Positions 9,020 through 49,967 of a stretch of 64,000 nt of DNA are shown piece by piece. Source of the stretch: Mayamaea pseudoterrestris. Its lineage: Eukaryota; Bacillariophyta; Bacillariophyceae; Sellaphorales; Sellaphoraceae. Both the position numbers and the translations under genes were made by a program. The notes under the pieces were generated by a model. The model ran no database searches. It was not told where the DNA came from and saw only the letters and a program-made list of their open reading frames with translations. The stretch lies in assembly GCA_027923505.1 (NCBI GenBank), contig BROI01000012.1, positions 124,001 to 188,000 on the forward strand, read 5' to 3'. How positions within the stretch are numbered: the first letter of the stretch is position 1; every line of letters starts with the position of its first letter.

Positions 9020-9230
9020 TGACGTAGTTTTCACTGGCACTCGTTTCATACTATTGCCTCAATGACGTAGTTTTCACTGGCACTCGTTTTGCGCTATTGC
9101 CTTGATGACGCAGTTTTCACTGGCACCCGTTTCGCATTATAGCCTTAGGCTTCGTTCTCACTGGCACTCGTTTCGTAGTATTGCCTTATGACGTAATTGA
9201 CACTGGCACTCGTTTCCTACTATTGCCTTC
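9020..9230. repeat. 43-bp tandem repeat, five copies
   Basis: Five head-to-tail units start near 9020, 9063, 9106, 9147 and 9189. The core ACTGGCACTCGTTT recurs at spacings of 43, 43, 41 and 42 bp. Four units and the flank at 9231 begin with TGACGTAG, TGACGCAG, TGACGTAA or TGACGTGG. These resemble CRE-type sites (TGACGT, TGACGC) bound by bZIP factors; whether they control a gene is unknown, since no confident gene lies next to them. Confidence 0.8.
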
Positions 9231-16795: not shown

Positions 16796-17395
16796 AACTT
16801 CTCGACCAGTCTCTGCCAGCAGATGCCTTGACATTTAATTGCCGATATAACATGCCGTGTATACACCCCAAATCACACCAGAATGGTGCCAACATCCTTT
16901 TTTAGGCTACGCTTAAAAATGGTATGCCTGGCTGGTGTCTCAGAAGACTGGTGAGAACTTCTCACCAGTCTCATCCCGCAGATGCCTCGATATTCAACTG
17001 CCCATATAACCTGCCATATACGCACTTAAATCACACCAGAATGGTGCCAACATTATTATTCAGGCTGCGCTACACAATGGTATGCCTGGCTGGTGTCTCA
17101 GGAGACTGCAATGTGATTGGTGACAACTTGTCACCAGTCTCATCCCGCAGATGCCATGACAATTAAATGCCCCTACATCAGGCCCTGTAGGTGCCCAAAT
17201 TACACCAGAATGGTGCCAACACCATTATTCAGGCTGCGCTACAAGATGGTAGGCTTGGCTGGTGTCTCAGGGGATGGCAATGTATTTGGTGACAACTTTT
17301 CACCAGTCTCAGCCCACAGATGCCATGACATTCAGATGCCCCTACAGCAAGCCCTGTAGGTGCCCAAATTACACCAGAATGGTGCCAACACCAGT
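16796..17395 (+). repeat. 169-bp-family satellite, block A left part
   Basis: About 3.5 diverged monomers in forward orientation. Landmarks are ACACCAGAATGGTGCCAACA, GCTGGTGTCTCAGG and GACAACTTGTCACCAGTCTC. The leftmost monomers are the most diverged (CATCCCGCAG, GTGTATACACC variants); those at 17110-17395 are close to the block B/C consensus read on the other strand. Confidence 0.88.
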
Positions 17396-17767
17396 AATTT
17401 GCTTCATCATTCCTGCCAGAATTCCAAGCGGCAATTTGCTTCCACATTCCTGCTGGAACTTCAAGCAGTGTTTTGCGGCTACATTCCTGCTGAAATTCCA
17501 AGCAGTAATTTGCTTCATCATTCCTGCCAGATTTCCAAGCGGCAATTTGCTTCCACATTCCTGCTGAAATTCCAAGCAGTAATTTGCTTCATCATTCCTG
17601 CCAGAATTCCAAGTGGCAATTTGCTTCCACATTCCTGCTGGAACTTCAAGCGGTGTTTTGTGGCTACATTCCTGCTGAAATTCCAAGCAGTAATTTGCTT
17701 CATCATTCCTGCCAGAAATCCAAGCGGCAATTTGCTTCCACATTCCTGCTGGATCTTCATGCAGTGT
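17396..17767 (+). repeat. 37-bp tandem repeat, ten copies
   Basis: Ten units of 37 bp with the pattern ATTTGCTTC-N2-CATTCCTGC followed by an AATTCCAAGCRG-type end. Unit types alternate in an order that repeats (CATCATTCC, CCACATTCC, GGCTACATTCC), so there is a higher-order arrangement. Because three units make 111 bp, open frames appear on both strands as a by-product. Confidence 0.9.
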
Positions 17768-17780
17768 TTGCATCCACAAC

Positions 17781-18380
17781 AGGTAAGAATAATCTGCATC
17801 TTGTGGTGTTGACCATACCCACAGTGGAGGCCGTAACCATGGTGTCAGCCTCCAGGCAGTCCTTTTTGCACCATTTGAGACTCTGCACCTGTCAATGGCA
17901 TACCCTGGACATGGTTTGCCTGACTCATTGGGTATTTGGGTGGCCAGGGCATGGGGCGTTTGACAGGTCAGAATCTGCAACTTGTGGTGTTGGCCTTACC
18001 CACTGTGGAGGCCGTACCCATGGTGTCAGCCTCCAGGCAGTCCTTTTTGCACCATTTGAGACTCTGCACCTGTCAATGGCATACCCTGGACATGTTTTGC
18101 CTGACTCATTGTATATTTGGGTGGCCAGGGCGTGGGGCATTTGACAGGGACGAATCTGCAACTTGTGGTGCTGGCCATACCCATAGTGGAGGCCGTACCC
18201 ATGGTGTCAGCCTCCAGGCAGTCCTTTTTGCATCATTTGAGACTCTGCACTTGTCAATGGCATACCCTGGACATGTTTTGCCTGACTCTTTGGGTATTTG
18301 GGTGGCCAGGGCATGGGGCGTTTGACAGGGAAGAATCTGCAACTTGTGGTGTTAACCATATCCACGGTGGAGGCCGTACC
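17781..18380 (+). repeat. 181-bp tandem repeat (type 1), 3.3 copies
   Basis: Units begin at 17781 (184 bp), 17965 (181 bp), 18146 (181 bp) and a partial one at 18327. Landmarks are GAATCTGCAACTTGTGGTG, CCATGGTGTCAGCCTCCAGG and ATTTGGGTGGCCAGGGC. Sequence is unrelated by eye to the next repeat despite the same period. Confidence 0.9.
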
Positions 18381-19099
18381 CATTGTGTGCTGAGTCCAGC
18401 CATATTGTTGATTTCATGAAACGGTCAATCAGGCAGCCCTGGTTTGCATTTCAATCTTTTCCTTAAATGTCAACCCCCGCTGTCATGCGCCAGACTGTCA
18501 TGCCATTGAAAGTGACCCACAGAGGGCCTCCACGGCACCTGACTTGCATGGTTAGATGCACCATTGTGTGCTGAGTCCAGCCAAATTGTTGAATTCATGA
18601 AACGGTTAATCAGGCAGCCCTGGTTTGCATTTCAATCTTTTCCTCCAGTGACAACCCCCGCTGTCTTGCGCCAGACTGTCATGCCATTGAAAGTGACCCA
18701 CAGAGGGCCTCCACGGCACCTGTCTTGCATGGTTAGATGCGCCATTGTGTGCTGAGTCCAGCCATATTGTTGAATTCATGAAACGGTCAATCAGGCATCC
18801 CTGGTTTGCATTTCAATCTTTTCCTCCAGTGACAACCCCCGCTGTCATGCGCCAGACTGTCATGCCATTGAAAGTGACCCACAGAGGGCCTCCACGGCAC
18901 CTGTCTTGCATGGTTAGATGCGCCATTGTGTGCGGAGTCCAGCCATATTGTTGAATTCATGAAACGGTCGATGAGGCAGCCCTGGTTTGCATTTCAATCT
19001 TTTCCTCAAGTGACAACCCCCGCTGTCATGCGCCAGACTGTCATGCCATTGAAAGTGACCCACAGAGGGGCCTCCACGGCACCTGTCTTGCATGGGTTC
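18381..19099 (+). repeat. 181-bp tandem repeat (type 2), four copies
   Basis: Units begin at 18381, 18562, 18743 and 18924, spacing exactly 181 bp. Each starts CATTGTGTGCTGAGTCCAGC and contains GACTGTCATGCCATTGAAAG and GAGGGCCTCCACGGCACCTG. The copies differ at a few sites only. Confidence 0.92.
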
Positions 19100-19560
19100 C
19101 AACATAATATTGTTCTTGGCTGGCTACATGATGGTAAACTTGGCTGGTGTCTCAGGGGATGGCAATGGATTTGGTGACAACTTGTCACCAGTCTCAGCCC
19201 GCAGATGCCATGACATTCAAACGCCCCTACAGCAAGCCCTGTAGGTGCCCAAAATACACCAGAATGGTGCCACCATCATTATTCCGGCTGCGCTACAAGA
19301 TGGTAAACTTGGCTGGTGTCTCAGGGGATGGCAATGATATTGGTGAGAACTTGTCACCAGTCTCAATCAGTCCGCAGGCGCCATGACATTCAATTGTCTG
19401 TATAACATGCCATATATACATCCAGATCACACCAGAATGGTGCCAACATCCTTTTTTCAGGATGCGCTACAAGATGGTAAGCTTGCTAGTGTCTCAGTAC
19501 ACTGGACTGTGATTGGTGACAACTTGCCACCAGTGTCAGCCCCAGATGCCTTGATCTCTG
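19100..19560 (+). repeat. 169-bp-family satellite, block A right part
   Basis: About 2.7 monomers of the same family as 16796-17395 and blocks B/C, forward orientation. The last one, near 19440-19560, is clearly decayed, as expected at the edge of an array. Confidence 0.85.
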
Positions 19561-31794: not shown

Positions 31795-34700
31795 CGTTTC
31801 TGGTGTAATTTGGGCACCGACAGGGCCTGCTGTAGGAGTGAAATTCATAGCATCTGCGGGCGTTGGCACAAGTGGTGTCAAAATGTCCCTGAGACACCAG
31901 CCAAACCTACCATCTTGTAGCCCAGCCTGAATAATGATGTTGGCACCGTTCTTGTTGTAATTTGGGCACCGACAGGGCTTGCTGGGCATTAATACATTGG
32001 CAGGTGACAAGTTGTCACCAAATACATTGGCATCCCCTGAGACACCAGCCAAGCTTACCATCATGTAGCGCAGCCTAAATAATGAAGTTGGCACCTTTCT
32101 GGTGTAATTTGGGCACCAACAGGGCCTGCTGTAGGGGCGTCTGAATGTCACGGCATCTGCGGGCTGAGACTGGTGACAAGTTGTCACCAAATACATTGCC
32201 ATCCCCTGAGACACCAGCCAAGCCTACCATCTTGTCGCCCAGCCTGAATAAAAATGTTGCCACCATTCTGGTGTATTTTGGGCACCAACAGGGCCTGCAG
32301 TAGAGGCGTTTGACTGTCACGGCATCTGCGGGCTGAGACTGGTGACAAGTTGTCACCAAATGCATTGCCATCCCCTGAGACACCAGCCAAGCCTACCATC
32401 ATGTAGCGCATTCTAAATAATGATGTTGGCACCATTCTGGTGTAATTTGGGCACCTACAGGGCCTGCTGTAGGGGCGTTGGAATGTCATGGCATCTACGG
32501 GCTGAGACTGGTGACAAATTGTCACCAAAGACATTGCCATCCCCTGAGACACCAGCCAAGCCTACCATCTTGTTGCCCAGCCTGAATAATAATGTTGCCA
32601 CTATTCTGGTGTATTTTGGGCACCAACAGGGCCTGCTGTAGGGGCGTTAGAATGTCACGGCATCTGCAGGCTGAGACTGGTGACAAGTTGTCACCAAATA
32701 CATTGCCATCCCCTGAGACACCAGCCAAGCCTACCATCATGTAGCGCAGCCTGAAAAATGATGTTGGCACCATTATGGTGTAATTTGGGCACCTACAGGG
32801 CCTGCTGTTGTCATGGCATCTGCAAGCTGAGACTGGTGACAAGTTGTCACCAAATACATTGCCATCCCCTGAGACACCAGCCAAGCCTACCATCTTGTCG
32901 CCCAGCCTGAATAAAAATGTTGGCACCATTCTGGTGTATTTTGGGCACCGACAGGGCCGGTTGTAGGGGCGTTGGAATGTCATGGCATCTGCAGGCTGAG
33001 ACTGGTGACAAGTTGTCCTCAAACACATTGCCATCCCCTGAGACACCAGCCAAGCTTACCATCTTGTAGGGCAGCCTGAATCATGATGTTGGCACCATTC
33101 TGGTGTATTTTGGGCACCAACAGGGCCTGCTGTAAGGGCGTTGGAATGTCATGGCATCTGCGGGCTGAGACTGGTGACAAGTTGTCACCAAATACATTGC
33201 CATCCCCTGAGACACCAGCCAAGCCTACCATCTTGTTGCCCAGCCTGAATAATGATGTTGGCACCATTCTGGTGTATTTTGGGCACCGACAGGGCCTGTT
33301 GTAGGGGTGTTGGAATGTCATGGCATCTGCGGGCTGAGACTGGTGACAAGTTGTCACCAAATACATTGCCATCCCCTGAGACATCAGCCAAGCCAACCAT
33401 CTTGTAGCCCAGCCTAAATAATGATGTTGGCACCATTCTGGTGTAATTTGGGCACCTACAGGGCCTGCTGTAGGGGCGTTGGAATGTCATGGCATCTGCG
33501 GGCTGAGACTGGTGACAAGTTGTCACCAAATACATTGCCATCCCCTGAGACACCAGCCAAGCTTACCATCATGTAGCGCAGCCTGAATAATGATGTTGGC
33601 ACCATTATGGTGTAATGTGGGCACCTACAGGGCCTGCTGTAGGGGCGTTGGAATGTCATGGCATCTGCGGGCTGAGACTGGTGACAAGTTGTCACCAAAT
33701 ACATTGCCATCCCCTGAGACACCAGCCAAGCTTACCATCTTGTAGCGCAGCCTGAATAATGATGTTGGCACCATTATGGTGTAATTTGGGCACCTACAGG
33801 GCCTGCTGTAGGGGCGTTGGAATGTCATGGCATCTGCGGGCTGAGACTGGTGACAAGTTGTCACCAAATACATTGCCATCCCCTGAGACACCAGCCAAGC
33901 TTACCATCTTGTAGCGCAGCCTGAATAATGATGTTGTCTCAATTCTGGTTTAATTTGGGCACCGACAGGGCTTGCTGTAGGGGCGTTGGAATGTCATGGC
34001 ATCTACGGGCTGAGACTGGTGACACCTTGTCACCAAATACATTGGCATCCCCTGAGACACCAGCCAAGCTTACCATCATGTAGCGCAGCCAAAATAATGA
34101 AGTTGGCACCATTCTGTTGTAATTTGGGCACCGACAGGGCTTGCTGTAGGGGCGTTTGACTGTCACAGCATCTGCGGGCTGAGACTGGTGACACCTTGTC
34201 ACCAAATACATTGGCATCCCCTGAGACACCAGCCAAGCTTACCATCATGTAGCTCAGCCTAAATAATAAAGTTGGCACCATTCTGTTGTAATTTGGGCAC
34301 CGACAGGGCCTGCTGTAGGGGCATCTGAATGTCACGGCATCTGCGGGCTGAGACTGGTGACAAGTTGTCACCAAATACATTGCCATCCCCTGAGACACCA
34401 GCCAAGCCTACCATCATGTAGCGCATTCTGAATAATGATGTTGGCACCATTCTGTTGTAATTTGGGCACCTACAGGGCCTGCTGTAGGGGCATTGGAATG
34501 TCATGGCATCTGCGGGCTGAGACTGGTGACAAGTTGTCACCAAATACATTGCCATCCCCTGAGACACCAGCCAAGCTTACCATCTTGTAGCGCAGCCTGA
34601 ATAATGATGTTGGCTCATTCCTGGTGTAATTTGGGCACCGACAGGGCTTGCTGTAGGGGCGTTTGAATGTCATGGCATCTGCGGGCTACGACTGGTGACA

Positions 34701-35532
34701 AGTTGTCACCAAATACATTGCCATCCCCTGAGACACCAGCAAAGCCTACCATCTTGTATCCCAGCCTTAATAATGTTGCCACCATTCTGGTGTATTTTGG
34801 GCACCGACAGGGCCTGCTGTAAGGGCGTTGGAATGTCACAGCATCTGCAGGCTGAGACTGGTGACAAGTTGTCACCAAATACATTGCCATCCCCTGAGAC
34901 ACCAGCCAAGCTTACCATCTTGTAGCGCAGCCTGAATAAAAATGTTGGCACCATTCTGGTGTATTTTGGGCACCGACAGGGCCTGTTGTAGGGGCGTTGG
35001 AATGTCATGGCATCTGCAGGCTGAGACTGGTGACAAGTTGTCACCAAATACATTGCCATCCCCTGAGACACCAGCCAAGCTTACCATCATGTAGCGCAGC
35101 CTGAATCATGATGTTGGCACCATTCTGGTGTATTTTGGGCAACAACAGGGCCTGCTGTAAGGGCGTTGGAATGTCACAGCATCTGCAGGCTGAGACTGGT
35201 GACAAGTTGTCACCAAATACATTGCCATCCCCTGAGACACCAGCCAAGCCTACCATCTTGTCGCCCAGCCTGAATAAAAAATGTTGGCACCATTCTGGTG
35301 TATTTTGGGCACCGACAGGGCCTGTTGTAGGGGCGTTGGAATGTCATGGCATCTGCAGGCTGAGACTGGTGACAAGTTGTCACCAAATACATTGCCATCC
35401 CCTGAGACACCAGCCAAGCTTACCATCATGTAGCGCAGCCTGAATCATGATGTTGGCACCATTCTGGTGTATTTTGGGCAACGACAGGGCCTGCTGTAAG
35501 GGCGTTGGAATGTCACAGCATCTGCAGGCTGA
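31795..35532 (-). repeat. 169-bp satellite array, block B (about 22 monomers)
   Basis: Head-to-tail monomers with a 169-bp period, in opposite orientation to block A. Each monomer carries TGGTGACAAGTTGTCACCA (9-bp inverted arms around one base), CACCATTCTGGTG (5-bp arms) and CTACAGGGCCTGCTGTAG (6-bp arms), plus ATTGCCATCCCCTGAGACAC. Left-edge monomers are the most diverged. Since 169 leaves remainder 1 when divided by 3, the many 88- and 122-codon minus-strand frames are by-products of the repeat and are not annotated as genes. It is interrupted at 35532 by a retrotransposon inserted in mid-monomer. Confidence 0.95.
35529..35532. repeat. Flanking duplication CTGA, left
   Basis: CTGA precedes the left LTR and recurs directly after the right LTR at 42118-42121. 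The uninterrupted monomer has one CTGA at this place (GGCTGAGACTGG), so it is the target-site duplication. Confidence 0.8.
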
Positions 35533-35845
35533 TTGTAACTTGTAAATCAAATCGTTGCACCTTTCGCTTGTAGCTGTCCTTGGATGGCCAATCCAAGCTT
35601 GCAGTTGCTACAATACGAGAGACGAATAAATCGCTTTCTTAACTCTTCAAGCTTAGTAACTCTGCTTGTTTCTACTCTCTATCGCACTAGTTTCAGCAAT
35701 ATACTCGTTGAATCGCTTCGAAGCCGTCGCTGCCACGCATCACGCGATCGTGAGGCTGTGGTGAGCCGCGAGTGCCGCTGTGTCACCCTATCGGACATTC
35801 GGTGTGACTTGCCCGATTTTCGCTGTTTTCGTTCACATCCTGCAA
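35533..35845 (-). repeat. 3' LTR of the copia element
   Basis: 313 bp, plus-strand ends TTGTAACTTG and CATCCTGCAA, so the minus-strand LTR runs TTGCAGG to TTACAA. Identical by eye to the 5' LTR apart from one substitution. Confidence 0.92.
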
Positions 35846-35853
35846 CTCCCCTC
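35846..35853 (-). other. Polypurine tract of the copia element
   Basis: On the minus strand GAGGGGAG lies immediately before the 3' LTR, the normal place of the plus-strand primer. Confidence 0.65.
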
Positions 35854-35862
35854 AAGTCATAC

Positions 35863-38800
35863 CTAATAGTTCGATTCCTTGAAAAGCAGGTTCTTTAAGT
35901 GCTTGCTTGCCGTTGCCCGCGGAAGAAACTTGGTAAGTACATCCGCCGGGTTTGTCGTTCCCATGATGTGGTTGAAATTAATAATTCCCGCCGCAATCGC
36001 TTCGCGTACACGGTGAAATGCCAGTGCATTGTGTCGCTTCGTCAGACTAGAGTGCGGTAAGTTACTGCTTTGCGTTACCGACTTGTTGTCTCCAAACATC
36101 CATGAAGGTCCGTCGAGCGGAACTCCCAACATGCGTAGCGTGAAGCGGAGATCCATGATCTGCTCCGTGCTCACTCTCGCTGCTACAAACTCCGAGCCGT
36201 ACGTCGCCGTCTCGACCGTCGCTTGGCGTTTCGAAAACCAATCGACGACTGTTCCATTCAACATGTGTAGCATGCCCATCGCTGCCCGTCCCGTCGTGTA
36301 ATCGTGGTACAGGTTTGCATCTTCAAACGTTGACATTCGCACCGCCTTGCCGCGCGGCGTGGGCATGTTCCACGGAAGCTCTTCGCAGATCTTGCCGTAC
36401 ACACTGTAGTCCCAATCCATCTTGTCAACTGTCGCGTATCGCTCGTCCGTTGGAATCGAAACGTTGAATCGAATCGCTCCATCCGGGTATCGTCGTAAGT
36501 ATCCGCAAATATGCTTCAACCGTTCCAAGTGCCCCGCTCGTGGCGCAGCTCGGAATCTCCCCATAGTCATGACAGCGCAGTGAATGTCGAATCGACATAA
36601 ACTTACTGCCCATTGCAACGCACCAATTATCGATTGATACTTCGCAATTCCGTCGTCGTCAAGTTCTTTCGTTTCGTCGAGTTCCGGATGATCGCCGTCG
36701 CGTAGTGGACTTGTCTGCGGTCGCGGTTCCTCGCCGAACATTTCTTTGTAGTTCGCTAGTAGCCTCGTGACGTACTTCTTCGCTCCGAAGCAGAGTACGC
36801 CGTCGTCGTCTCGCCAAACGTCTGCGCCCAAATGATATGCCAATGGACCGACGCCCTTCAACTTGTAGTTGTAGTTCTCAATTAAAAGATCCGTTAGTTC
36901 CTTTGGATTCTTCATCGCTATCGCTAAATCGTCGACATACACACAAACGTATTCGTAGTGCGTGCCTTTATCGCGCATCCACACGTCCGGTTCTGCGATA
37001 CACGGCGTGAAGCCAATGTCGCGGAGCGTGTCTGCAAAGTGCTCGTGCCAGCGTGCGCCTGACGTGCGAAGACCGTATAATGCCTTCACGATCGTGAGCG
37101 TGTGACCCTCGAGCTCCCCGAACTCCGGACCTGCCACGATATAAACCTTCTCTTTCGTTTTCGCTTCCAAGTATGCGTTGCCGACGTCAGCTGCCCACAG
37201 TTCCAGACCGTTGAGTTCCGCTAACATCGCTACCATTCGTAGACTTCGCAATGACACAACGCCCGAGTAAACTGAATCCTTCGGCGGCTCTGTCATATGT
37301 CCTCCTGCGACGAGTCGTGCTTTCCGTCGCAAATCGTGCTTGACATCGAATATCATGTGCACGTTTATTCGTTTCCATGGCGCCGGCATAACCTTACCGA
37401 CTCCTTGATCTGCGAACGTGTCGTAATCATTTATCTGATTTAATTCCGTTCGAATCGCATCCGTCCACAGCGTGTTGCCGTTGATCTCGTCGAGAGCTTT
37501 CGCATCTTTATAATTGCGCGGCAGTCTTACGCCAAATTTGTAGCGTACGCCGTTTGCTTTCGATTTTCGTTTCGCTGCTGTCACCATCTGTCGAAACTTC
37601 TTTCGCTTCCGAGTGTAATGTTCCAGCTGCTTCCATCCTGGCTTGTCGAGTAAGCTGTGCTTGAGTCCATACTCTGCGATCGTTATCGGATCGTCCTTCT
37701 TCATGATCGCGAGAGGCTCCCACGTCGTCGTTCCGTCGGTCCATTCGACGAGAACGTTACTTGAACTTCCCTTGTATGTCGGATCGTTCGGTTTCAGATT
37801 AAGCTCGTGTCCGATTACTTTCGTGAATACCCACTGAGTCGCCGGATCGTTTCGTATATCTTCGTCCATCTGTCGTTCGATTAAATCCGACAGTTCGTTG
37901 TAACTTATTAAGTCTTTCGCTGGCTCCTCTCCCATCTGGATCAGGAAACCTTTCGTCGTTTCGAGTAGCTCGTTATCGCGTACTTCGATATATTCGCATA
38001 CAGTCGCTCGCATTTTCTGACCGTTTTCGTGTTCCCTTACGAACGTGCGTCCGATGAGTTCGCTTGGAGAGAACAGAGGGCATTTATTCCCTGATTCTTG
38101 CTCAGCCCTTCTGAAGAACTTCGCTGGTACGTTGGCGTGGTTCGCCATCGGAATCGTTTCGTCGTCGTTTCCTTCGTAGTTGTCGTGACTACTTTCTGTC
38201 GCATTCGTGCTATGATAGCGTCCTGTCGCGAGATCTGGAGTTTCAAAATTTCGCTCGCTTGCGCGTGTAGCTTCTTCAGAAATCTCCCCTCCAGACTCAG
38301 GGAAGGAAGGCAACTCTCGTGGTAACAAGTAGCTGCGCGAGACCACGTTGGAGCGCGGAATCGCCTGAAGCGTGTCGTCCGTCAGAACGAGAAAAGTCAT
38401 GTGCGGACCGCTATTCTCTGCGATGCCCACGAATCGGCCGTTGCCAGATCGTACCGCCGAGGGAAAACTCCCCTGCGCCTCAAACGTGACCGGTTCCCAC
38501 CACTTGAAATGTAACAAAGGCGAAATATCCGGCAAATTTCCGAACGCAACTTCCGTTGGAGTGCGCCATCCCAGCGATTTTGTCGCGAGGACGTTCAGAA
38601 TCATGATTACGAATTTAATCAGCAAAACCCAGCAATGCCCTGGCGAACCCGAATCTCGTTGGAGGTTCTCCATCATTGGCTTAATGTGCGACGTGTGACG
38701 TTCGCATGGATTTTGTTCTGGGTGACCCGGTTCTGTGGTCACTTGAGGAATATTGTACATCCGACAGAGATCCCTCACAGCCTTGCCAGTCTCCGACTTG

Positions 38801-41655
38801 GCATTGTCGCTGAGCAGTCCGTTAGGAGCGCCCACTTCGCGGATAAAATCCTCTAACGCGTTTGACATGTCGCTCTCCGACTTCATCGGGTAGCCGCGCG
38901 TGTAAAAACTTTCTCGTCCAACAAAGAGCTGCATCTTAGTAGCTCCCCCATGCCCTAGAATTCCATCATCCAAAGCTGGCGTGTCAGAGTGTATCGTGTC
39001 CGTGGCGAATAGTTCGCGCAACCGCTGAACGTTTGCGGCCGGAAATCTTGATTTTGTGAGGTGTCGAAATGGTAATCGTGGATGTTCGCTGAGATGATAC
39101 CATGCCTCCGTGTGACGTAAAGTCTGTTGAACGCGCTCAGTCGGGACCCATCCGAGGTACGGCCGAAGAGCATTATAGTCCGGTTCCTTGCTTCGTAGCT
39201 TCCGCAAATTAACGCGTGAAAACTGAGCGTGTCGCACGCACCGATTGATCAGTACGTCAAGTTCGTCGCCAGTGCGTGTCGGCGTGTGACGATTGCGGTG
39301 CGTGATACCGTCATCGTCGAATCGTTCGTCAAAAGATCCATAATCGTGATCGCGTTCGTCGAAATCGTCGTGCGCGTGCTCGACATCGTAAACAGTCGGG
39401 TCCCACGGCACGTCCGACGTCATGATGACAGTCGGATACTTATCCAAATCATCGAACGTGGGTTTCGTCACGTCCAAGTATACCAGGCCATCGCGAATCG
39501 CCAATGGCAAAACGTAGCCTCCAATGTTCGTCGTAATTCGTTGCGTTCCGCCAAACATGGTCGGAATATCGTCGACACGATGTCCCATTGCGCGCAATTG
39601 ATTCGGGCAATGAATCGTCGGTCCGTCTCGCTTTAAAGCATACTGGTGACACAAAAGCAGAATGGTTTCGCCACTAAGGGTCTTAGCCAGTCCAGCTGCA
39701 GTGCCAATCTTGAGAGCTGGGACAATATGATCGTCAATACCAGTCACATCCACCTCGGCGTTCGTTTCCGAAACGACGAGCATGTCTCCTCCGCATAAGC
39801 CTCCGTTCGCGCCGCTGTCGATGAGCGCGCCTTCGTTGATCCGCTCGTAGTGTGCGCGATTGACGCGCATACGACGATGCATGTTGAAGCTGAATGTACC
39901 TCGTCCGGTGTTATCAGTCGTCAACGATCCTGTCACTTGCTGAGTTGTAGTACTCGCATTGTTCGCTTGCAGAACCGATCGTGCAGCCGTTTGGACTGAC
40001 ATTCCACTATTGCCTGGCTGAATATTAATCGTGCCAGGAACGCTTGCGTGATCGTTCGCTACAGATTCCGTCGCGTGACGCTCTTGATGCGCCGCGTTGA
40101 CTTGCGTCTGCGTCGTAGCCGTGCCTCGTTGGTTGCGCGGTCGCCATCCGTTTTCGGGTGTCTTGGGCGCCGTCGCACGCTTGTCCTTCAACTGCTTTCG
40201 CTGATCGAACTTCATCTCCAACCAGACTTCATCCTTCACGCTCGCGTGAGGTTTCTTCATGATCGCTGCGAATCGTTCCGCCGATAAGCCGCTTGGAGTC
40301 GCGCCGCCATTGCCGCCGCCGCCTCCTTTCGTTCCACTAGACTGCGCTTGATTGATTGTGCGCTTAGTCTTCGTCGTCGATGGATGTTTCTTGTCATACT
40401 TGATGCAGCACTCTTCTAAGTGCGCGTACAACTGCGCGAAATTGTCTTCCGAGTCGTGTTGCCCCATGTGTTTCTTGATGGCAATCATTCCGTCAAAACC
40501 TGCTAGCGAGGCGCTGAATCCAGTGTGCTCAGAGAAAGCGTCGCGTAGCATGTCGTATCGTTGTAAACCTGTCAGAGCTTCTGCGTCCATTTCGAGCAGC
40601 CAGATGACTTTCTTGTAGAACAGTGCGAGAAATTCGATCGTCGGCCTTGACCACTTCTCGGTCAGCCGCATTCCCTGCAGTTCCGTTCGCGCGCGTTCCT
40701 TCTCGATGTGAGCAGTAGCGCCTTCTTCGTATCGCGTTCGCAATCGTTGGTAGACTTCGCGTCCGTCCATCGTCTTCTTGAACTGCTGTACTGCGAGTGA
40801 TGCAGACGGAGTTCGACAGTGCGTGAGAAAGATTCTGTATACAAACACATTCTTCTTTGCATACGCCTTCTGTTCCTTCGGTCCCTTTTCCTTCGGGTCA
40901 TAATCGTCGTCAAAGACTTCGTGGAAGTCGTGCAATGTAGCGATGACTTTCAACTCGGAAATCCACTGTTTCCACGAGGAATCCAGCTTCATTTCTTTAC
41001 AATCCTTCGCCGAGAACTTGATAGACTTCGTAAATTGGTCTGAATACTTCTCGTCGTCTTCGTCGTCACCGAGGTCCAGTACGGATGTCGGTGACTGCTT
41101 CGTGTCCACGTCCACGCTCGTCGGTGGCACCTTGTCGGCCGAGTCGGGCTTCGACTCGTCGCCTTCGTTCGTTAGCGTGGAGTCCTTGGATTCGTCCTTC
41201 TTGGATTCCGTTTCGCTTTCTTTCACTGGAGGTTTCGCTCCGCTTCCGCTGCCCACGCTCGCAATGTTGCGCGCTTGGACTCGTTCCTTCGCTCGTGCTG
41301 TGACGAACGTCGCCAGCGTTTCGGTGGTCAGTTGCGACCATGTCTTGATGTCCGGCGACTCTTGCGCCAAATACCATTCGATCGCGTTCGTGATCGTGCG
41401 TTGTTTCATCTTCGTTAGCGAGTGTTCGCTCGTTTCCTGCGTGACATTGTCGCCATCGTCAGTCGTCGTCGTTGTCGTCGTCGTGACGTTCCACTTCGTC
41501 GCGAAATCGTCGTACTCCATCTCGATCAATTGCGTAAGCGATTCTACTCCGAGTTCGTCGAATAACTCCTTGAACTGAGGATCTTGGAAAACGCCTACGT
41601 TCTCTTCGTAAACATGCGCGAAAGCCGCGTCCTTTTGCGCGCGAGTTTCCGCCAT
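35863..41655 (-). CDS. Copia gag-pol polyprotein, intact
   Basis: One frame of 1,930 codons from the ATG at 41655 (MAETRAQKDAAF); the open frame extends 20 codons further without an ATG. The N-terminal 550 residues are gag-like, with a long acidic/Ser/Lys linker; I do not see a CCHC knuckle. Near residue 612 GALIDSGANGG is the aspartic protease site (DSGA). Integrase follows: FATDT, LLSDNAKSE (about 950) and EQNPCERH supply the D, D and E. Between integrase and RT, at about 1330-1380, VLVEWTDGTTTWEPL resembles a chromodomain. RT has RKARLVAGG and the YVDD box (about 1573). RNase H has TYGSEFVAA and FGDNKSV (about 1857), and the end LTKFLP is typical. No frameshift or stop, so it is probably active or recently so. 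Confidence 0.93.
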   Translation of the reverse strand: MAETRAQKDAAFAHVYEENVGVFQDPQFKELFDELGVESLTQLIEMEYDDFATKWNVTTTTTTTTDDGDNVTQETSEHSLTKMKQRTITNAIEWYLAQESPDIKTWSQLTTETLATFVTARAKERVQARNIASVGSGSGAKPPVKESETESKKDESKDSTLTNEGDESKPDSADKVPPTSVDVDTKQSPTSVLDLGDDEDDEKYSDQFTKSIKFSAKDCKEMKLDSSWKQWISELKVIATLHDFHEVFDDDYDPKEKGPKEQKAYAKKNVFVYRIFLTHCRTPSASLAVQQFKKTMDGREVYQRLRTRYEEGATAHIEKERARTELQGMRLTEKWSRPTIEFLALFYKKVIWLLEMDAEALTGLQRYDMLRDAFSEHTGFSASLAGFDGMIAIKKHMGQHDSEDNFAQLYAHLEECCIKYDKKHPSTTKTKRTINQAQSSGTKGGGGGNGGATPSGLSAERFAAIMKKPHASVKDEVWLEMKFDQRKQLKDKRATAPKTPENGWRPRNQRGTATTQTQVNAAHQERHATESVANDHASVPGTINIQPGNSGMSVQTAARSVLQANNASTTTQQVTGSLTTDNTGRGTFSFNMHRRMRVNRAHYERINEGALIDSGANGGLCGGDMLVVSETNAEVDVTGIDDHIVPALKIGTAAGLAKTLSGETILLLCHQYALKRDGPTIHCPNQLRAMGHRVDDIPTMFGGTQRITTNIGGYVLPLAIRDGLVYLDVTKPTFDDLDKYPTVIMTSDVPWDPTVYDVEHAHDDFDERDHDYGSFDERFDDDGITHRNRHTPTRTGDELDVLINRCVRHAQFSRVNLRKLRSKEPDYNALRPYLGWVPTERVQQTLRHTEAWYHLSEHPRLPFRHLTKSRFPAANVQRLRELFATDTIHSDTPALDDGILGHGGATKMQLFVGRESFYTRGYPMKSESDMSNALEDFIREVGAPNGLLSDNAKSETGKAVRDLCRMYNIPQVTTEPGHPEQNPCERHTSHIKPMMENLQRDSGSPGHCWVLLIKFVIMILNVLATKSLGWRTPTEVAFGNLPDISPLLHFKWWEPVTFEAQGSFPSAVRSGNGRFVGIAENSGPHMTFLVLTDDTLQAIPRSNVVSRSYLLPRELPSFPESGGEISEEATRASERNFETPDLATGRYHSTNATESSHDNYEGNDDETIPMANHANVPAKFFRRAEQESGNKCPLFSPSELIGRTFVREHENGQKMRATVCEYIEVRDNELLETTKGFLIQMGEEPAKDLISYNELSDLIERQMDEDIRNDPATQWVFTKVIGHELNLKPNDPTYKGSSSNVLVEWTDGTTTWEPLAIMKKDDPITIAEYGLKHSLLDKPGWKQLEHYTRKRKKFRQMVTAAKRKSKANGVRYKFGVRLPRNYKDAKALDEINGNTLWTDAIRTELNQINDYDTFADQGVGKVMPAPWKRINVHMIFDVKHDLRRKARLVAGGHMTEPPKDSVYSGVVSLRSLRMVAMLAELNGLELWAADVGNAYLEAKTKEKVYIVAGPEFGELEGHTLTIVKALYGLRTSGARWHEHFADTLRDIGFTPCIAEPDVWMRDKGTHYEYVCVYVDDLAIAMKNPKELTDLLIENYNYKLKGVGPLAYHLGADVWRDDDGVLCFGAKKYVTRLLANYKEMFGEEPRPQTSPLRDGDHPELDETKELDDDGIAKYQSIIGALQWAVSLCRFDIHCAVMTMGRFRAAPRAGHLERLKHICGYLRRYPDGAIRFNVSIPTDERYATVDKMDWDYSVYGKICEELPWNMPTPRGKAVRMSTFEDANLYHDYTTGRAAMGMLHMLNGTVVDWFSKRQATVETATYGSEFVAARVSTEQIMDLRFTLRMLGVPLDGPSWMFGDNKSVTQSSNLPHSSLTKRHNALAFHRVREAIAAGIINFNHIMGTTNPADVLTKFLPRATASKHLKNLLFKESNY

Positions 41656-41804
41656 CGTTGTCGTCGTGACAATGTTCTTGCTATCACCTGCGGAACTTTC
41701 CGGGCCAAGAACCAACGTGCGTCCACGTTACTTCGTAAATCAATAGTACTCTTCGTCGATAAAGTCTCTATGCCGAGGCAATGAGTCTCAAGACAGTGTT
41801 AATC

Positions 41805-42117
41805 TTGTAACTTGTAAATCAAATCGTTGCACCTTTCGCTTGTAGCTGTCCTTGGATGGCCAATCCAAGCTTGCAGTTGCTACAATACGAGAGACGAATA
41901 AATCGCTTTCTTAACTCTTCAAGCTTAGTAAGTCTGCTTGTTTCTACTCTCTATCGCACTAGTTTCAGCAATATACTCGTTGAATCGCTTCGAAGCCGTC
42001 GCTGCCACGCATCACGCGATCGTGAGGCTGTGGTGAGCCGCGAGTGCCGCTGTGTCACCCTATCGGACATTCGGTGTGACTTGCCCGATTTTCGCTGTTT
42101 TCGTTCACATCCTGCAA
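41805..42117 (-). repeat. 5' LTR of the copia element
   Basis: 313-bp partner of 35533-35845. An 150-bp leader lies between it and the ATG of the polyprotein. I could not identify the primer-binding tRNA: the sequence after the LTR (GATTAACACTGTC) is not the usual initiator-Met complement. Confidence 0.92.
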
Positions 42118-45100
42118 CTGAGACTGGTGACAAGTTGTCACCAAATACATTGCCATCCCCTGAGACACCAGCCAAGCCTACCATCTTGTCGCCCAGCCTG
42201 AATAATGATGTTGGCACCATTCTGGTGTATTTTGTGCACTGACAGGGCCTGTTGTAGGGGTGTTGGAATGTCATGGCATCTGCGGGCTGAGACTGGTGAC
42301 AAGTTGTCACCAAATACATTGCCATCCCCTGAGACACCAGCCATGCCTACCATCTTGTAGCCCAGCCTGAATAATAATGTTGGCACCATTCTGGTGAAAT
42401 TCGGGCACCGACAGGGCCTGCTGTAGGGGCGTTGGAATGTCACGGCATATGTGGGCTGAGACTGGTGACAAGTTGCCACCAAATACATTGCCATCCCCTG
42501 AGACACCAGCCAAGCCTACCATCATGTAGCGCATTCTAAATAATGATGTTGGCACCATTCTGTTGTAATTTGGGCACCTACAGGGCCTGCTGTAGGGGCG
42601 TTGGAATGTCATGGCATCTACGGGCTGAGACTGGTGACAAGTTGTCACCAAATACATTGCCATCCCCTGAGACACCAGCCAAGCCTACCATCTTGTAGCC
42701 CAGCCTAAACAATAATGTTGCCACCATTCTGGTGTATTCTGGGCACCGACAGGGCCTGTTGTAGGGGTGTTGGAATGTCATGGCATCAGTAGGCTGAGAC
42801 TGGTGACAAGTTGTCACCAAATACATTGCCATCCTCTGAGACACCAGCCAAGCTTACCATCTTGTAGCGCAGCCTAAATAATGATGTTGGCACCATTCAG
42901 GTGTATTTTGGGCACCTACAGGGCTTGCTGTAAGGGCGTTTGAATGTCACGGCAACTGCGGGGTGAGACTAGTGACAAGTTGTCACCAAATACATTGCCA
43001 TCCCCTGAGACACCAGCCAAGCCTACCATCATGTAGCGCAGCCTGAATAATGATGTTGGCACCATTATGGTGTAATTTGGGCACCGACAGGGCCTGCTGT
43101 AGGGGCGTTGGAATGTCACGGCATCTGCGGGCTGAGACTGGTGACAAGTTGTCACCAAATACATTGCCATCCCCTGAGACACCAGCCAAGCTTACCATTT
43201 TGTAGCGCATCCTAAATAATGATGTTGGCACCATTCTTGTGTATTCTGGGCACCTACAGGGCCTGCTGTAGGGGCATTGGAATGTCATGGCATCTGCGGG
43301 CTGAGACTGGTGACAAGTTGTCAACAAATACATTGGCATCCCCTGAGACACCAGCCAAGCTTACCATCTTGTAGCGCAGCCTAAATAATAATGTTGGCAC
43401 CATTCAGGTGTATTTTGGGCACCTACAGGGCTTGCTGTAAGGGCATTTGAATGTCACGGCAACTGCGGGGTGAGACTAGTGACAAGTTGTCACCAAATAC
43501 ATTGCCATCCCCTGAGACACCAGCCAAGCCTACCATCTTGTCGCCCAGCCTGAATAAAAATGTTGGCACCATTCTGTTGTAATTTGGGCACCTACAGGGC
43601 CTGCTGTAGGGGCGTTGGAATGTCATGGCATCTACGGGCTGAGACTGGTGACAAGTTGTCACCAAAGACATTGCCATCCCCTGAGACACCAGCCAAGCCT
43701 ACCATCTTGTTGCCCAGCCTGAATAATAATGTTGCCACTAATCTGGTGTATTTTGGGCACCAACAGGGCCTGCTGTAGGGGCGTTAGAATGTCACGGCAT
43801 CTGCAGGCTGAGACTGGTGACAAGTTGTCACCAAATACATTGCCATCCCCTGAGACACCAGCCAAGCCTACCATCATGTAGCGCAGCCTGAATAATGATG
43901 TTGGCATTATTATGGTGTAATTTGGGCACCTACAGGGCCTGCTGTTGTCATGGCATCTGCAAGCTGAGACTGGTGACAAGTTGTCACCAAATACATTGCC
44001 ATCCCCTGAGACACCAGCCAAGCCTACCATCTTGTCGCCCAGCCTGAATAAAAATGTTGGCACCATTCTGGTGTATTTTGGGCACCGACAGGGCCGGTTG
44101 TAGGGGCGTTGGAATGTCATGGCATCTGCAGGCTGAGACTGGTGACAAGTTGTCACCAAACACATTGCCATCCCCTGAGACACCAGCCAAGCTTACCATC
44201 ATGTAGCGCAGCCTGAATCATGATGTTGGCACCATTCTGGTGTATTTTGGGCACCAACAGGGCCTGCTGTAAGGGCGTTGGAATGTCACAGCATCTGCGG
44301 GCTGAGACTGGTGACAAGTTGTCACCAAATACATTGCCATCCCCTGAGACACCAGCCAAGCCTACCATCTTGTTGCCCAGCCTGAATAATGATGTTGGCA
44401 CCATTCTGGTGTATTTTGGGCACCGACAGGGCCTGTTGTAGGGGTGTTGGAATGTCATGGCATCTGCGGGCTGAGACTGGTGACAAGTTGTCACCAAATA
44501 CATTGCCATCCCCTGAGACATCAGCCAAGCCTACCATCTTGTAGCCCAGCCTAAATAATGATGTTGGCACCATTCTGGTGTAATTTGGGCACCTACAGGG
44601 CCTGCTGTAGGGGCGTTGGAATGTCATGGCATCTGCGGGCTGAGACAGGTGACAAGTTGTCACCAAATACATTGCCATCCCCTGAGACACCAGCCAAGCT
44701 TACCATCATATAGCGCAGCCTGAAGAATGATGTTGGCACCATTATGGTGTAATGTGGGCACCTACAGGGCCTGCTGTAGGGGCGTTGGAATGTCATGGCA
44801 TCTGCGGGCTGAGACTGGTGACAAGTTGTCACCAAATACATTGCCATCCCCTGAGACACCAGCCAAGCTTACCATCTTGTAGCGCAGCCTGAATAAGGAT
44901 GTTGGCACCATTATGGTGTAATTTGGGCACCTACAGGGCCTGCTGTAGGGGCGTTGGATTGTCATGGCATCTGCGGGCTGAGACTGGTGACAAGTTGTCA
45001 CCAAATACATTGCCATCCCCTGAGACACCAGCCAAGCCTACCACCTTGTAGCCCAGCCTGAATAATAATGTTGCCACCATTCTGGTGTAATTTGGGCACC

Positions 45101-45431
45101 TACAGGGCCTGCTGTAGGGGCGTTGGAATGTCATGGCATCTGCGGGCTGAGACTGGTGACAAGTTGTCACCAAATACATTGCCATCCCCTGAGACACCAG
45201 CCAAGCTTACCATCATATAGCGCAGCCTGAATAATGATGTTGGCACCATTATGGTGTAATTTGGGCACCTACAGGGCCTGCTGTAGGGGCGTTGGAATGT
45301 CATGGCATCTGCGGGCTGAGACTGGTGACAAGCTGTCACCAAATACATTGCCATCCCCTGAGACACCAGCCAAGCTTACCATCTTGTAGCGCAGCCTGAA
45401 TAATGATGTTGGCACCATTATGGTGTAATTT

Positions 45432-47478
45432 GGGCACCTACAGGGCCTGCTGTAGGGGCGTTGGAATGTCATGGCGAGACTGGTGACAAGTTGTCACCAA
45501 ATACATTGCCATCCTCTGAGACACCAGCCAAGCTTACCATCTTGTAGCGCAGCCTGAATCATGATGTTGGCACCATTCAGGTGTATTTTGGGCACCTACA
45601 GGGCTTGCTGTAAGGGCATTTGAATGTCACGGCAACTGCGGGGTGAGACTAGTGACAAGTTGTCACCAAATACATTGCCATCCCCTGAGACACCAGCCAA
45701 GCCTACCATCATGTAGCGCAGCCTGAATAATGATGTTGGCACCATTATGGTGTAATTTGGGCACCGACAGGGCCTGCTGTAGGGCGTTGGAATGTCATGG
45801 CATCTGCGGGCTGAGACTGGTGACAAGTTGTCACCAAATACATTGCCATCCCCTGAGACATCAGCCAAGCCTATCATCTTGTAGCCCAGCCTGAATAATG
45901 ATGTTGGCACCATTCTGGTGTAATTTGGGCACCAAATGGGCCTGCTGTAAGGGCGTTGGAATGTCACAGCATCTGCAGGCTGAGACTGGTGACAAGTTGT
46001 CACCAAATACATTGCCATCCCTGAGACATCAGCCAAGCCTACCATCTTGTAGCCCAGCCTGAATAATGATGTTGGTACCGTTCTGGTGTAATTTTAACAC
46101 TGACAGGGCCTGCTGTAGGGGCATTGGAATGTCATGGCATCTGCGGGCTGAGACTGGTGACTAGTTGTCACCAAATACATTGGCATCCCCTGAGACACCA
46201 GCCAAGCTTACCATCATGTAGCGCAGCCTGAAAAATGAAGTTGGCACCATTCTGGTGTAATTTGGGCACTGACACGGCCTGCTGTAGGTGCGTTAGAATG
46301 TCATGGCATCTGTGGGCTGAGTCTGGTGACAAGTTGTCACCAAATACATTGCCATCCCCTGAGACACCAACCAAGCCTACCATCTTGTAGCCCAGCCGGA
46401 ATAATGATGTTGGCAACATTCTGGTGTAATTTGGGCACCAACAGGGCCTGCTGTAGGGGCGTTGGAATGTCACGGTATCTGCCGGCTGAGTCTGGTGACA
46501 AGTTGTCACCAAATACATTGCTATCCGCTGAGACACCAGCCAAGCTTGCCATCTTGTAGCGCATTCTAAATAATGATGTTGGCACCATTCTGGTGTAATT
46601 TGGGCACCTACAGGGCCTGCTGTAGGGGCGTTGGAATGTCACGGCATCTGCGGGCTGAGACTGGTGACAAGTTACATTGCCATCCCCTTGAGACACCAGC
46701 CAAGCCTACTATCTTGTAGCGCAGCCTGAATAATAATGTTGCCACCATTCTGGTGTAATTTGGGCACCGACAGGGCCTGCTGTAGGGGCGTTGGAATGTC
46801 ACGGCATCTGCGGGCTGAGACTGGTGACAAGTTGTCACCAAATTCATTGCCATCCCCTGAGACACCAGCCAAGCTTACCATCTTGTAGCGCATCCTGAAT
46901 AATGATGTTGGCACCATTCTTGTGTAATTTGGGCACCTACAGGGCCTGCTGTAGGGGCGTTGGAATGTCATGGCATCTGCGGGCTGAGACTGGTGACAAG
47001 TTGTCACCAAATACATTGCCATCCCCTGAGACACCAGCCAAGCTTACCACCTTGTAGCCCAGCCTGAATAATGATGTTGGCACCTTTCTGGTGTAATTTG
47101 GGCACCGACAGGGCCTGCTGTAGGGGCGTTGGAATGTCATGGCATCTGCGGGCTGAGACTGGTGACAAGTTGTCACCAAATACATTGCCATCCCGTAAGA
47201 CATCAGCCAAGCTTACCCTCTTGTAGCGTAGCCTGAATAATGATGTTGGCACCATTCTGGTGTAATTTGGGCACCTACAGGGCCTGCTGTAGGGGCGTTG
47301 GAATGTCATCGCATCTGCGGGCTGAGACTGGTGACAAGTTGTCACCAAATACATTGCCATCCCCTGAGATATCAGCCAAGCCTACCATTTTGTAGCCCAG
47401 CCTGAATAATGATGTTGGCACCGTTCTGGTGTAATTTGGGCACCTACAGGGCCTGCTGTAGGTGTGTTTGAATGTCAT
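45432..47478. repeat. 2,047-bp tandem duplication, copy 1
   Basis: Every landmark in this stretch recurs exactly 2,047 bp to the right. The unusual monomers (GGCACCAAATGGGCC, AATTTTAACACTGACAGG, deletion in GACAAGTTACATTGCC) appear in both copies in the same order with the same sequence. Confidence 0.92.
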
Positions 47479-49525
47479 GGGCACCTACAGGGCCTGCTGT
47501 AGGGGCGTTGGAATGTCATGGCGAGACTGGTGACAAGTTGTCACCAAATACATTGCCATCCTCTGAGACACCAGCCAAGCTTACCATCTTGTAGCGCAGC
47601 CTGAATCATGATGTTGGCACCATTCAGGTGTATTTTGGGCACCTACAGGGCTTGCTGTAAGGGCATTTGAATGTCACGGCAACTGCGGGGTGAGACTAGT
47701 GACAAGTTGTCACCAAATACATTGCCATCCCCTGAGACACCAGCCAAGCCTACCATCATGTAGCGCAGCCTGAATAATGATGTTGGCACCATTATGGTGT
47801 AATTTGGGCACCGACAGGGCCTGCTGTAGGGCGTTGGAATGTCATGGCATCTGCGGGCTGAGACTGGTGACAAGTTGTCACCAAATACATTGCCATCCCC
47901 TGAGACATCAGCCAAGCCTATCATCTTGTAGCCCAGCCTGAATAATGATGTTGGCACCATTCTGGTGTAATTTGGGCACCAAATGGGCCTGCTGTAAGGG
48001 CGTTGGAATGTCACAGCATCTGCAGGCTGAGACTGGTGACAAGTTGTCACCAAATACATTGCCATCCCTGAGACATCAGCCAAGCCTACCATCTTGTAGC
48101 CCAGCCTGAATAATGATGTTGGTACCGTTCTGGTGTAATTTTAACACTGACAGGGCCTGCTGTAGGGGCATTGGAATGTCATGGCATCTGCGGGCTGAGA
48201 CTGGTGACTAGTTGTCACCAAATACATTGGCATCCCCTGAGACACCAGCCAAGCTTACCATCATGTAGCGCAGCCTGAAAAATGAAGTTGGCACCATTCT
48301 GGTGTAATTTGGGCACTGACACGGCCTGCTGTAGGTGCGTTAGAATGTCATGGCATCTGTGGGCTGAGTCTGGTGACAAGTTGTCACCAAATACATTGCC
48401 ATCCCCTGAGACACCAACCAAGCCTACCATCTTGTAGCCCAGCCGGAATAATGATGTTGGCAACATTCTGGTGTAATTTGGGCACCAACAGGGCCTGCTG
48501 TAGGGGCGTTGGAATGTCACGGTATCTGCCGGCTGAGTCTGGTGACAAGTTGTCACCAAATACATTGCTATCCGCTGAGACACCAGCCAAGCTTGCCATC
48601 TTGTAGCGCATTCTAAATAATGATGTTGGCACCATTCTGGTGTAATTTGGGCACCTACAGGGCCTGCTGTAGGGGCGTTGGAATGTCACGGCATCTGCGG
48701 GCTGAGACTGGTGACAAGTTACATTGCCATCCCCTTGAGACACCAGCCAAGCCTACTATCTTGTAGCGCAGCCTGAATAATAATGTTGCCACCATTCTGG
48801 TGTAATTTGGGCACCGACAGGGCCTGCTGTAGGGGCGTTGGAATGTCACGGCATCTGCGGGCTGAGACTGGTGACAAGTTGTCACCAAATTCATTGCCAT
48901 CCCCTGAGACACCAGCCAAGCTTACCATCTTGTAGCGCATCCTGAATAATGATGTTGGCACCATTCTTGTGTAATTTGGGCACCTACAGGGCCTGCTGTA
49001 GGGGCGTTGGAATGTCATGGCATCTGCGGGCTGAGACTGGTGACAAGTTGTCACCAAATACATTGCCATCCCCTGAGACACCAGCCAAGCTTACCACCTT
49101 GTAGCCCAGCCTGAATAATGATGTTGGCACCTTTCTGGTGTAATTTGGGCACCGACAGGGCCTGCTGTAGGGGCGTTGGAATGTCATGGCATCTGCGGGC
49201 TGAGACTGGTGACAAGTTGTCACCAAATACATTGCCATCCCGTAAGACATCAGCCAAGCTTACCCTCTTGTAGCGTAGCCTGAATAATGATGTTGGCACC
49301 ATTCTGGTGTAATTTGGGCACCTACAGGGCCTGCTGTAGGGGCGTTGGAATGTCATCGCATCTGCGGGCTGAGACTGGTGACAAGTTGTCACCAAATACA
49401 TTGCCATCCCCTGAGATATCAGCCAAGCCTACCATTTTGTAGCCCAGCCTGAATAATGATGTTGGCACCGTTCTGGTGTAATTTGGGCACCTACAGGGCC
49501 TGCTGTAGGTGTGTTTGAATGTCAT
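47479..49525. repeat. 2,047-bp tandem duplication, copy 2
   Basis: Second copy, directly abutting. The junction at 47471-47481 (AATGTCATGGGCACCTAC) breaks the monomer phase: GTCATGG is followed by GGCACC rather than by CATCTGC, which marks the recombination point. Confidence 0.92.
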
Positions 49526-49967
49526 GGCATCTGCGGGCTGAGACTGGTGACAAGTTGTTACCAATCACATCGCAGTCTACTGAGACAATATTATTAAACC
49601 TACCACCTTGTGGCGTCGCCTAAATAATGATGTTGGCACCATTCCGGTGTAATATGGGTGTATACATGGCTTGCTGTAGAGGCGTTTGAATGTCAAGATC
49701 CCTACAATCCTACTGTCTAAGATTTTTGCATCTGGAGAAGCAGCAGCTGCATTGGCGCACGTTGTATTTATACATTCTACAACAGTGACTGGAAAGGGGC
49801 GGGGCAGTGTCCCACAGACTGCTAGATCGTTACAGTAGCTACCAGTTAAGTGGTGGTAAATGTGTCGTTGTCCTCCCCTCAAAATGGCCTCGATTCAATT
49901 TCATGAAGCATACTCGTCCATTGCGCAAGACACTCATCAAACCATGACCAAGACATAGACCATGCGT

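Follow-up and report, generated by a model that had tools for sequence, protein, structure and literature searches.

A dispersed 169-bp satellite carrying a low-variability 19-bp palindrome in the genome of the diatom Mayamaea pseudoterrestris

A 64,000-nucleotide stretch of contig BROI01000012.1 (hereafter the window) from the pennate diatom Mayamaea pseudoterrestris (Bacillariophyceae, Sellaphorales) was analyzed for a tandem repeat with a unit of 169 bp, and the assembly (30.6 Mb, 41 contigs) was searched for the same family. By the tests made, the repeat is a satellite: it forms long head-to-tail arrays of one monomer, and the mean difference between monomers was 0.072 within arrays and 0.102 between them, as in concerted evolution. 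A 19-bp palindrome, dyad 1 (TGGTGACAAGTTGTCACCA), was shown, with the caveats given below, to be one of the monomer's least variable blocks, and judging from the pattern of its changes it is probably the site of a dimeric protein. The best explanation of the whole is a dispersed, nucleosome-length satellite whose arrays are CG-methylated heterochromatin islands and whose palindrome is bound by a dimeric chromatin protein, to which a probability of about 0.55 was assigned. Most of what is known about diatom centromeres and heterochromatin comes from Phaeodactylum. In a compact 30-Mb genome where nucleosome-length satellite makes up about 5% and lies among the genes, it can be tested whether satellites persist by carrying a protein site, and one candidate 19-bp site and arrays of different ages and subfamilies are all present within this one genome.

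Family size and genomic distribution

The exact 19-bp dyad occurred 7,561 times in the assembly, with 3,689 forward and 3,872 reverse copies. This count was divided by the fraction of monomers with an exact dyad (77%, 90 of 117) in the unselected arrays, namely those of the window and the contig starts, which were not found through a pattern. The family was thus estimated at about 9,800 monomers, about 1.7 Mb or about 5% of the assembly. The arrays sit among genes at dozens of sites and are homogenized locally. At least 52 sites were found on 26 of the 41 contigs, in both orientations, including eight on the 2.99-Mb contig C1, where satellite was also present at two further places. The initial annotation had expected a single block per chromosome, and this expectation failed.

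The complete lists of two rare variants held 53 places, forming 35 sites on 23 contigs, and 35 places, forming 17 sites, with six sites in common (20-kb linkage). The capture–recapture total from these two lists was about 92 sites, a rough figure since the variants are array-specific; the 52-site union adds seven C1 places and five others. The place lists for commoner patterns are lower bounds, so a missing place there is no sign of absence. A 37-base variant pattern had one match, and satellite was present in three of the 20 contig starts examined. No report of the 169-bp repeat was found in the literature on diatom satellites or on the species; that literature did not include the genome paper of the species, so the repeat is not claimed to be unreported.

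Conservation of the dyads

The monomer holds two shorter inverted repeats, dyad 2 (CACCATTCTGGTG) and dyad 3 (CTACAGGGCCTGCTGTAG). Dyad 1 was beyond chance, as arms of at least 9 bp with a loop of at most 3 appeared in only 2 of 1000 dinucleotide shuffles of the monomer. Short dyads were common by chance: 561 of 1000 shuffles had one or more inverted repeats with 5-bp arms and a loop of at most 3, and 311 of 1000 had one with 6-bp arms and a loop of at most 6, arm lengths like those of dyads 2 and 3. Eleven stretches of other satellites (up to 6 mismatches) and 153 kb of non-satellite DNA (up to 4 mismatches) held no near match to dyad 1.

The conservation profile used two rotated consensuses, since mismatches near the ends of a monomer, the place of dyad 1, are trimmed by local alignment. 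Loci L002–L006, which lie within L001 and L007, and the transporter loci L041–L044 were excluded from all counts. Over 26 array groups of equal weight, the divergence of dyad 1 was 0.0204 against a median of 0.0688 for all 19-bp segments, which ranked it 2 of 169; rank 1 was dyad 1 shifted by one base. Monomers with the centre variant by which arrays were located are dropped from these divergences, as from the context and consensus counts, and the value for dyad 1 is slightly lower as a result. When such monomers were kept, the divergence of dyad 1 over all loci of that profile was 0.0216 and its rank again 2 of 169. Of the 26 groups, 25 had dyad 1 less divergent than the rest of the monomer, 25 had dyad 2 less divergent and 12 had dyad 3 less divergent. 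In monomers of less than 86% identity, dyad 1 diverged by 0.065 and the rest by 0.195. Moreover, in arrays L045 and L048, where the rest was 15% and 11% off the consensus, dyad 1 was intact in all of the 15 and 7 monomers counted, respectively, centre-variant ones excluded.

The exact genome counts are independent of array sampling, yet dependent on the chosen consensus. Dyad 1 had 1.4–1.9 times the exact copies of five other stretches: dyad 2 (centred) had 5,543, dyad 3 with two free letters 3,975, and the other stretches 4,272, 4,057 and 3,950. No array consensus among 24 (20 of them pattern-located) had a change in dyad 1 or dyad 2, and stretches starting at 83–86, which overlap dyad 2, were equally constant. 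In one array located by non-dyad patterns, the dyad was exact in four of five monomers. A dyad-less array, apparent at C1:609–610 kb, was rejected because the dyad is present in the sequence there.

Dyad 1 ranked 2 of the 169 segments in the pattern-located arrays. The ranks of dyad 2 were 58 in the unselected arrays, 57 in the window and 17 in the pattern-located arrays, and those of dyad 3 were 149, 159 and 151. Dyad 2 is partly conserved and dyad 3 behaves as neutral. The earlier proposal that the dyads are more conserved than the rest of the monomer holds for the 19-bp dyad, partly for dyad 2 and not for dyad 3. This conservation lends support to the suggestion that the 19-bp dyad is a putative protein-binding site, retained by most copies.

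New changes and changes that have spread

If the site is needed, private changes are expected within it but few shared ones, because changes arise and seldom spread. In the test on 24 arrays, centre-variant monomers of the unselected arrays were retained, and of a 2-kb duplication only the first copy was counted. Private and shared changes in dyad 1 were 0.46 and 0.14 of those in the rest of the monomer (Fisher p 0.0007). The corresponding values were 1.0 and 0.47 for dyad 2 (p 0.0036), and 0.80 and 1.01 for dyad 3 (p 0.21).

Several results weigh against a selected protein site. Most of the arrays in the spread test (20 of 24) were located by pattern, mostly dyad 1 or the centre variant, and the test was not significant in the four unselected arrays, where private and shared changes were 0.58 and 0.31 for dyad 1 (p 0.42) and 0.89 and 1.25 for dyad 2 (p 0.51). 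Dyad 3 gave 0.51 and 0.99 there (p 0.17). In addition, dyad 1 ranked only 13 of 169 over the unselected arrays and 17 when the window was taken by itself, and the control stretch 24–42 was exact in 88 of 117 unselected monomers against 90 of 117 for dyad 1. In group L036, dyad 1 was more divergent than the rest (0.037 vs 0.027). Deletions were not rarer in dyad 1 (2.32 vs 2.72 per site).

The non-significant spread test in the unselected arrays and the near-equal exactness of stretch 24–42 are what would be seen if the palindrome were free of selection and owed its conserved look to low local mutability, uneven gene conversion and array-finding bias. Even the private changes in dyad 1 are halved, which a low rate of mutation or frequent conversion would also produce. 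However, sequence context predicted 87.7 private changes in dyad 1, twice the 44 seen; the centre base inside the dyad was six times more variable than the arms; and the genome-wide exact counts, free of sampling, favour dyad 1 over the five other stretches. An origin of the palindrome's constancy without selection was considered doubtful.

Protein site or DNA shape

The private changes in dyad 1 fell on the centre base in 12 of 325 monomer cells and on the arms in 34 of 5,850. Arm pairs were changed on one side in 63 cases and on both sides in none, which makes sequence recognition likelier than a kept hairpin. The low change rate of the palindrome suggests that some protein recognizes it, and a dimer reading two symmetric half-sites is a better fit than a hairpin conserved for its shape. 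A candidate dimeric, sequence-specific chromatin protein would bind the palindrome, and monomers keeping it would persist or spread; the reason proposed is that binding would position nucleosomes, seed silencing, or both. A search of the genome for CENP-B or pogo/Tc5-type proteins with the PF03221 profile gave no match, and the control was also without a match.

It is unlikely that the palindrome acts instead as DNA shape, that is, as a cruciform or hairpin whose effect is to stall forks and promote array growth and exchange. Its perfect 9-bp arms, so rarely reached in shuffles, would suit such a role, and the fragment folded as RNA did better than 200 of 200 shuffles (z −2.82). Against this, no arm pair was changed on both sides, the orientation switches and array edges examined fall outside the palindrome, and the whole monomer as DNA (169 nt) folded no better than expected (z −1.08). 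A monomer-length stretch of 134 nt folded as RNA gave a z of −1.91. Orientation switches at the palindrome were considered and rejected, since the junctions read lie elsewhere.

CpG depletion and chromatin state

The observed/expected ratio of CpG was 0.28 in the array of the window and 0.13–0.43 in seven other satellite stretches, compared with 1.14–1.16 in non-satellite DNA and 1.54 in the copia element inside the array. TpG and CpA were raised in the satellites. At the four consensus CpGs, C>T changes had a frequency of 0.123 against 0.033 elsewhere, and G>A changes 0.098 against 0.023, while transversions rose only from 0.024 to 0.041; one of the four, the site at 68–69, was without the transition excess. 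Such CpG depletion is expected of methylated heterochromatin. In the diatoms studied, CG methylation concentrates on repeats and transposable elements, according to passages of a published account (PMC9998398), and the present genome has three C5-methyltransferase matches. The arrays are probably islands of CG-methylated heterochromatin, as the CpG decay indicates. On the other side, the low CpG could come from the founder sequences. The initial annotation had tentatively linked the satellite to centromeric or heterochromatic DNA; CpG decay indirectly supports the heterochromatic part, and the dispersal of the family tells against the centromeric one, at least as a single block.

Layout of the window

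The coordinates of the features are given in Table 1.

Table 1. Satellite, dyad and retrotransposon features in the 64-kb window
Feature	Position	Strand	Basis or remark
Left part of 169-bp satellite array	31,798–35,532	+	Tandem Repeats Finder (TRF), monomer matches
Right part of same array, in phase again past the retrotransposon	42,118–49,695	+	TRF, monomer matches, junction
Dyad 1 example, 19-bp palindrome TGGTGACAAGTTGTCACCA, 9-bp arms	33,341–33,359	+	
Dyad 2 example, CACCATTCTGGTG	33,431–33,443	+	Partly conserved
Dyad 3 example, CTACAGGGCCTGCTGTAG	33,456–33,473	+	Not conserved
Exact tandem duplication, 45,481–47,480 = 47,528–49,527, 2,000 bases identical	45,481–49,527	+	
Ty1/copia long terminal repeat (LTR) retrotransposon inside array	35,533–42,117	−	LTRs, target duplication, RVT_2
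Reversed, older satellite piece	16,796–17,396	−	Monomer matches
Second reversed, older satellite piece	19,095–19,554	−	Monomer matches

TRF gave 21.0 copies of the 169-bp unit at 32,003–35,532 and 44.9 copies in the right part. There were 69 plus-strand monomer matches between 31,798 and 49,695, of which 66 were at least 149 bp long. The initial annotation had described about 67 monomers running from 31,795 to 49,700, with a homogenized core and decaying edges. The repeat is real and the range holds the main array; the array is not continuous, as the retrotransposon interrupts it, and more copies lie on the minus strand outside the range. The core and edges were as described, the array middle being homogeneous and the last monomer having 79% identity. 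The statement that each monomer carries all three dyads was too strong, since the exact plus-strand copies in the window numbered 48, 29 and 23 for dyads 1, 2 and 3. The 2,000-bp exact duplication could be a recent unequal exchange or an assembly artefact.

The two LTRs of the Ty1/copia element (35,533–35,845 and 41,805–42,117) have one difference in 313 bp and are bordered by a 4-bp target duplication, CTGA (35,529–35,532 and 42,118–42,121). A long open frame at 35,863–41,727 on the minus strand matched RVT_2, the copia-type reverse transcriptase, with an E value of 3.1e-25. The satellite phase was kept across the insertion. The element is young, and younger than the satellite array.

Three other tandem repeats, one of 37 bp and two with different 181-bp units, lie between the reversed satellite pieces (17,394–19,095). 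A 42–43-bp tandem repeat at 9,020–9,236 recurs in the contig-start stretches L014, L016, L020 and L027. The whole window gave no Rfam match and no tRNA. Elsewhere in the genome, a 181-bp relative flanks arrays L029, L047 and L048. Among the 20 contig starts, five are filled or headed by a 180/181-bp satellite that also has a 352-bp higher-order form, namely those of C4, C9, C11, C20 and C30 (stretches L012, L017, L019, L024 and L026). At the start of C11, this 180/352-bp satellite lies beside telomere-like CCCTAA repeats. A neighbouring 348-bp satellite (L047:1976–3001) has its own 27-bp inverted repeat, in four copies and unlike dyad 1. Three silicon-transporter matches were found in one open frame of 1,445 residues (G000:C1:2970661–2974680, L042–L044), as in a triple fused transporter. 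A silicon transporter of this genome matched, at 100% identity along the full query, a protein assigned to M. pseudoterrestris.

Centromere function and mobility

A usual centromeric satellite, in which CENH3 would occupy a single main array on each chromosome and the remaining copies would be strays, was judged very unlikely. The nucleosome-length monomer and the homogenized arrays would fit it, as would short dyads, which are discussed for centromeres in passages of two works (PMC8997354, PMC9070824). However, the dispersal over at least 52 sites on 26 contigs, with eight on C1 where one main block would be expected, weighs against a conventional single centromere. A diatom centromere of the Phaeodactylum type has a low-GC (guanine plus cytosine) core of about 28–32% over 500 bp for episome maintenance (PMC4976089). 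No such core was found: the array has 51% GC, no 300-bp segment of the 64 kb was below 36% GC, and none in L001–L028 was below 33%, unlike the low-GC centromeres in passages on Phaeodactylum (PMC9266582). Those passages of the complete-genome paper, in which centromeres are placed by low GC, do not use the words satellite or tandem. An AT-rich core beside the array near C1:640 kb was rejected, as the low GC of L007 is a run of N.

Spread of the satellite by a mobile element, whether as its cargo or as one of its parts, was considered highly improbable. Among 24 array flanks, 14 had a piece of at least 60 bp in common with another flank, and L001 and L028 have 213 bp in common at 98.6%. The array edges L008 (61–1274) and L035 (1–1225), on two contigs, were 89% alike over 1,254 columns, a span that takes in unique flank as well as a reversed degenerate satellite block, which indicates that array edges can move together. 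In contrast, ten of the 24 flanks share nothing, several of the common pieces are other satellites or short segments, joined to the array in differing phase and orientation, and a common pair of ends was not seen among the flanks examined.

By analogy with Rhynchospora (PMC10954556) and Luzula (PMC11538461), for which passages describe the repeat-based holocentromere, the one centromere model that fits the dispersal, the scattered arrays might be centromere units of a holocentric or polycentric diatom, each marked by a palindrome-bound dimeric protein, but this is scarcely probable. The size of the arrays and their rough spacing are similar to those of Tyba in Rhynchospora. Arrays along all chromosomes would be expected in that case, and they were seen on 26 of 41 contigs, from sampled lists.

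Comparison with known systems

The alpha satellite monomer is 171 bp long. The CENP-B box of primate alpha satellite, in the parts of the source concerned (PMC8997354), resembles the present case in the near-equal monomer length and in a standout block of 17–19 bp that is likely a protein site. The monomer block is constrained here too, though the spread test fell short of significance when confined to the four unselected arrays. The box differs in sequence; the block here is palindromic and lies in many dispersed arrays, not at one centromere. The palindrome would act in the manner of a CENP-B box, although it is not one.

The methylated repeat islands of Phaeodactylum and other diatoms are comparable, since CG methylation confined to repeats, with the remainder of the genome unmethylated, would leave the CpG contrast seen here. 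In the passages concerned (PMC9998398) they are described mainly for transposable elements. Tyba of Rhynchospora also forms genome-wide arrays, which average about 20 kb and are spaced about 400 kb apart in the passages concerned (PMC10954556), compared with an 11.3-kb array in the window and about one array per 330 kb at the rough count of 92 sites. CENH3 was shown on Tyba in the same passages (PMC10954556).

The excerpts on PpSat of the oomycete Phytophthora parasitica (PMC7290008) likewise report stramenopile satellites of up to a few hundred bp. They have other lengths, GC contents and copy numbers, and a conserved palindrome is not mentioned in those excerpts. Box 1 of the Meloidogyne satellites, in the sections concerned (PMC3694981), is a short box of low variability in an otherwise diverging satellite, as here. 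It is common to divergent satellites there, whereas no near match to dyad 1 was found in the other satellites examined. Membership in the box-bearing class of primates or root-knot nematodes is not claimed, only likeness; by that analogy with the passages on both (PMC8997354, PMC3694981), the satellite of M. pseudoterrestris may work like these box-bearing satellites.

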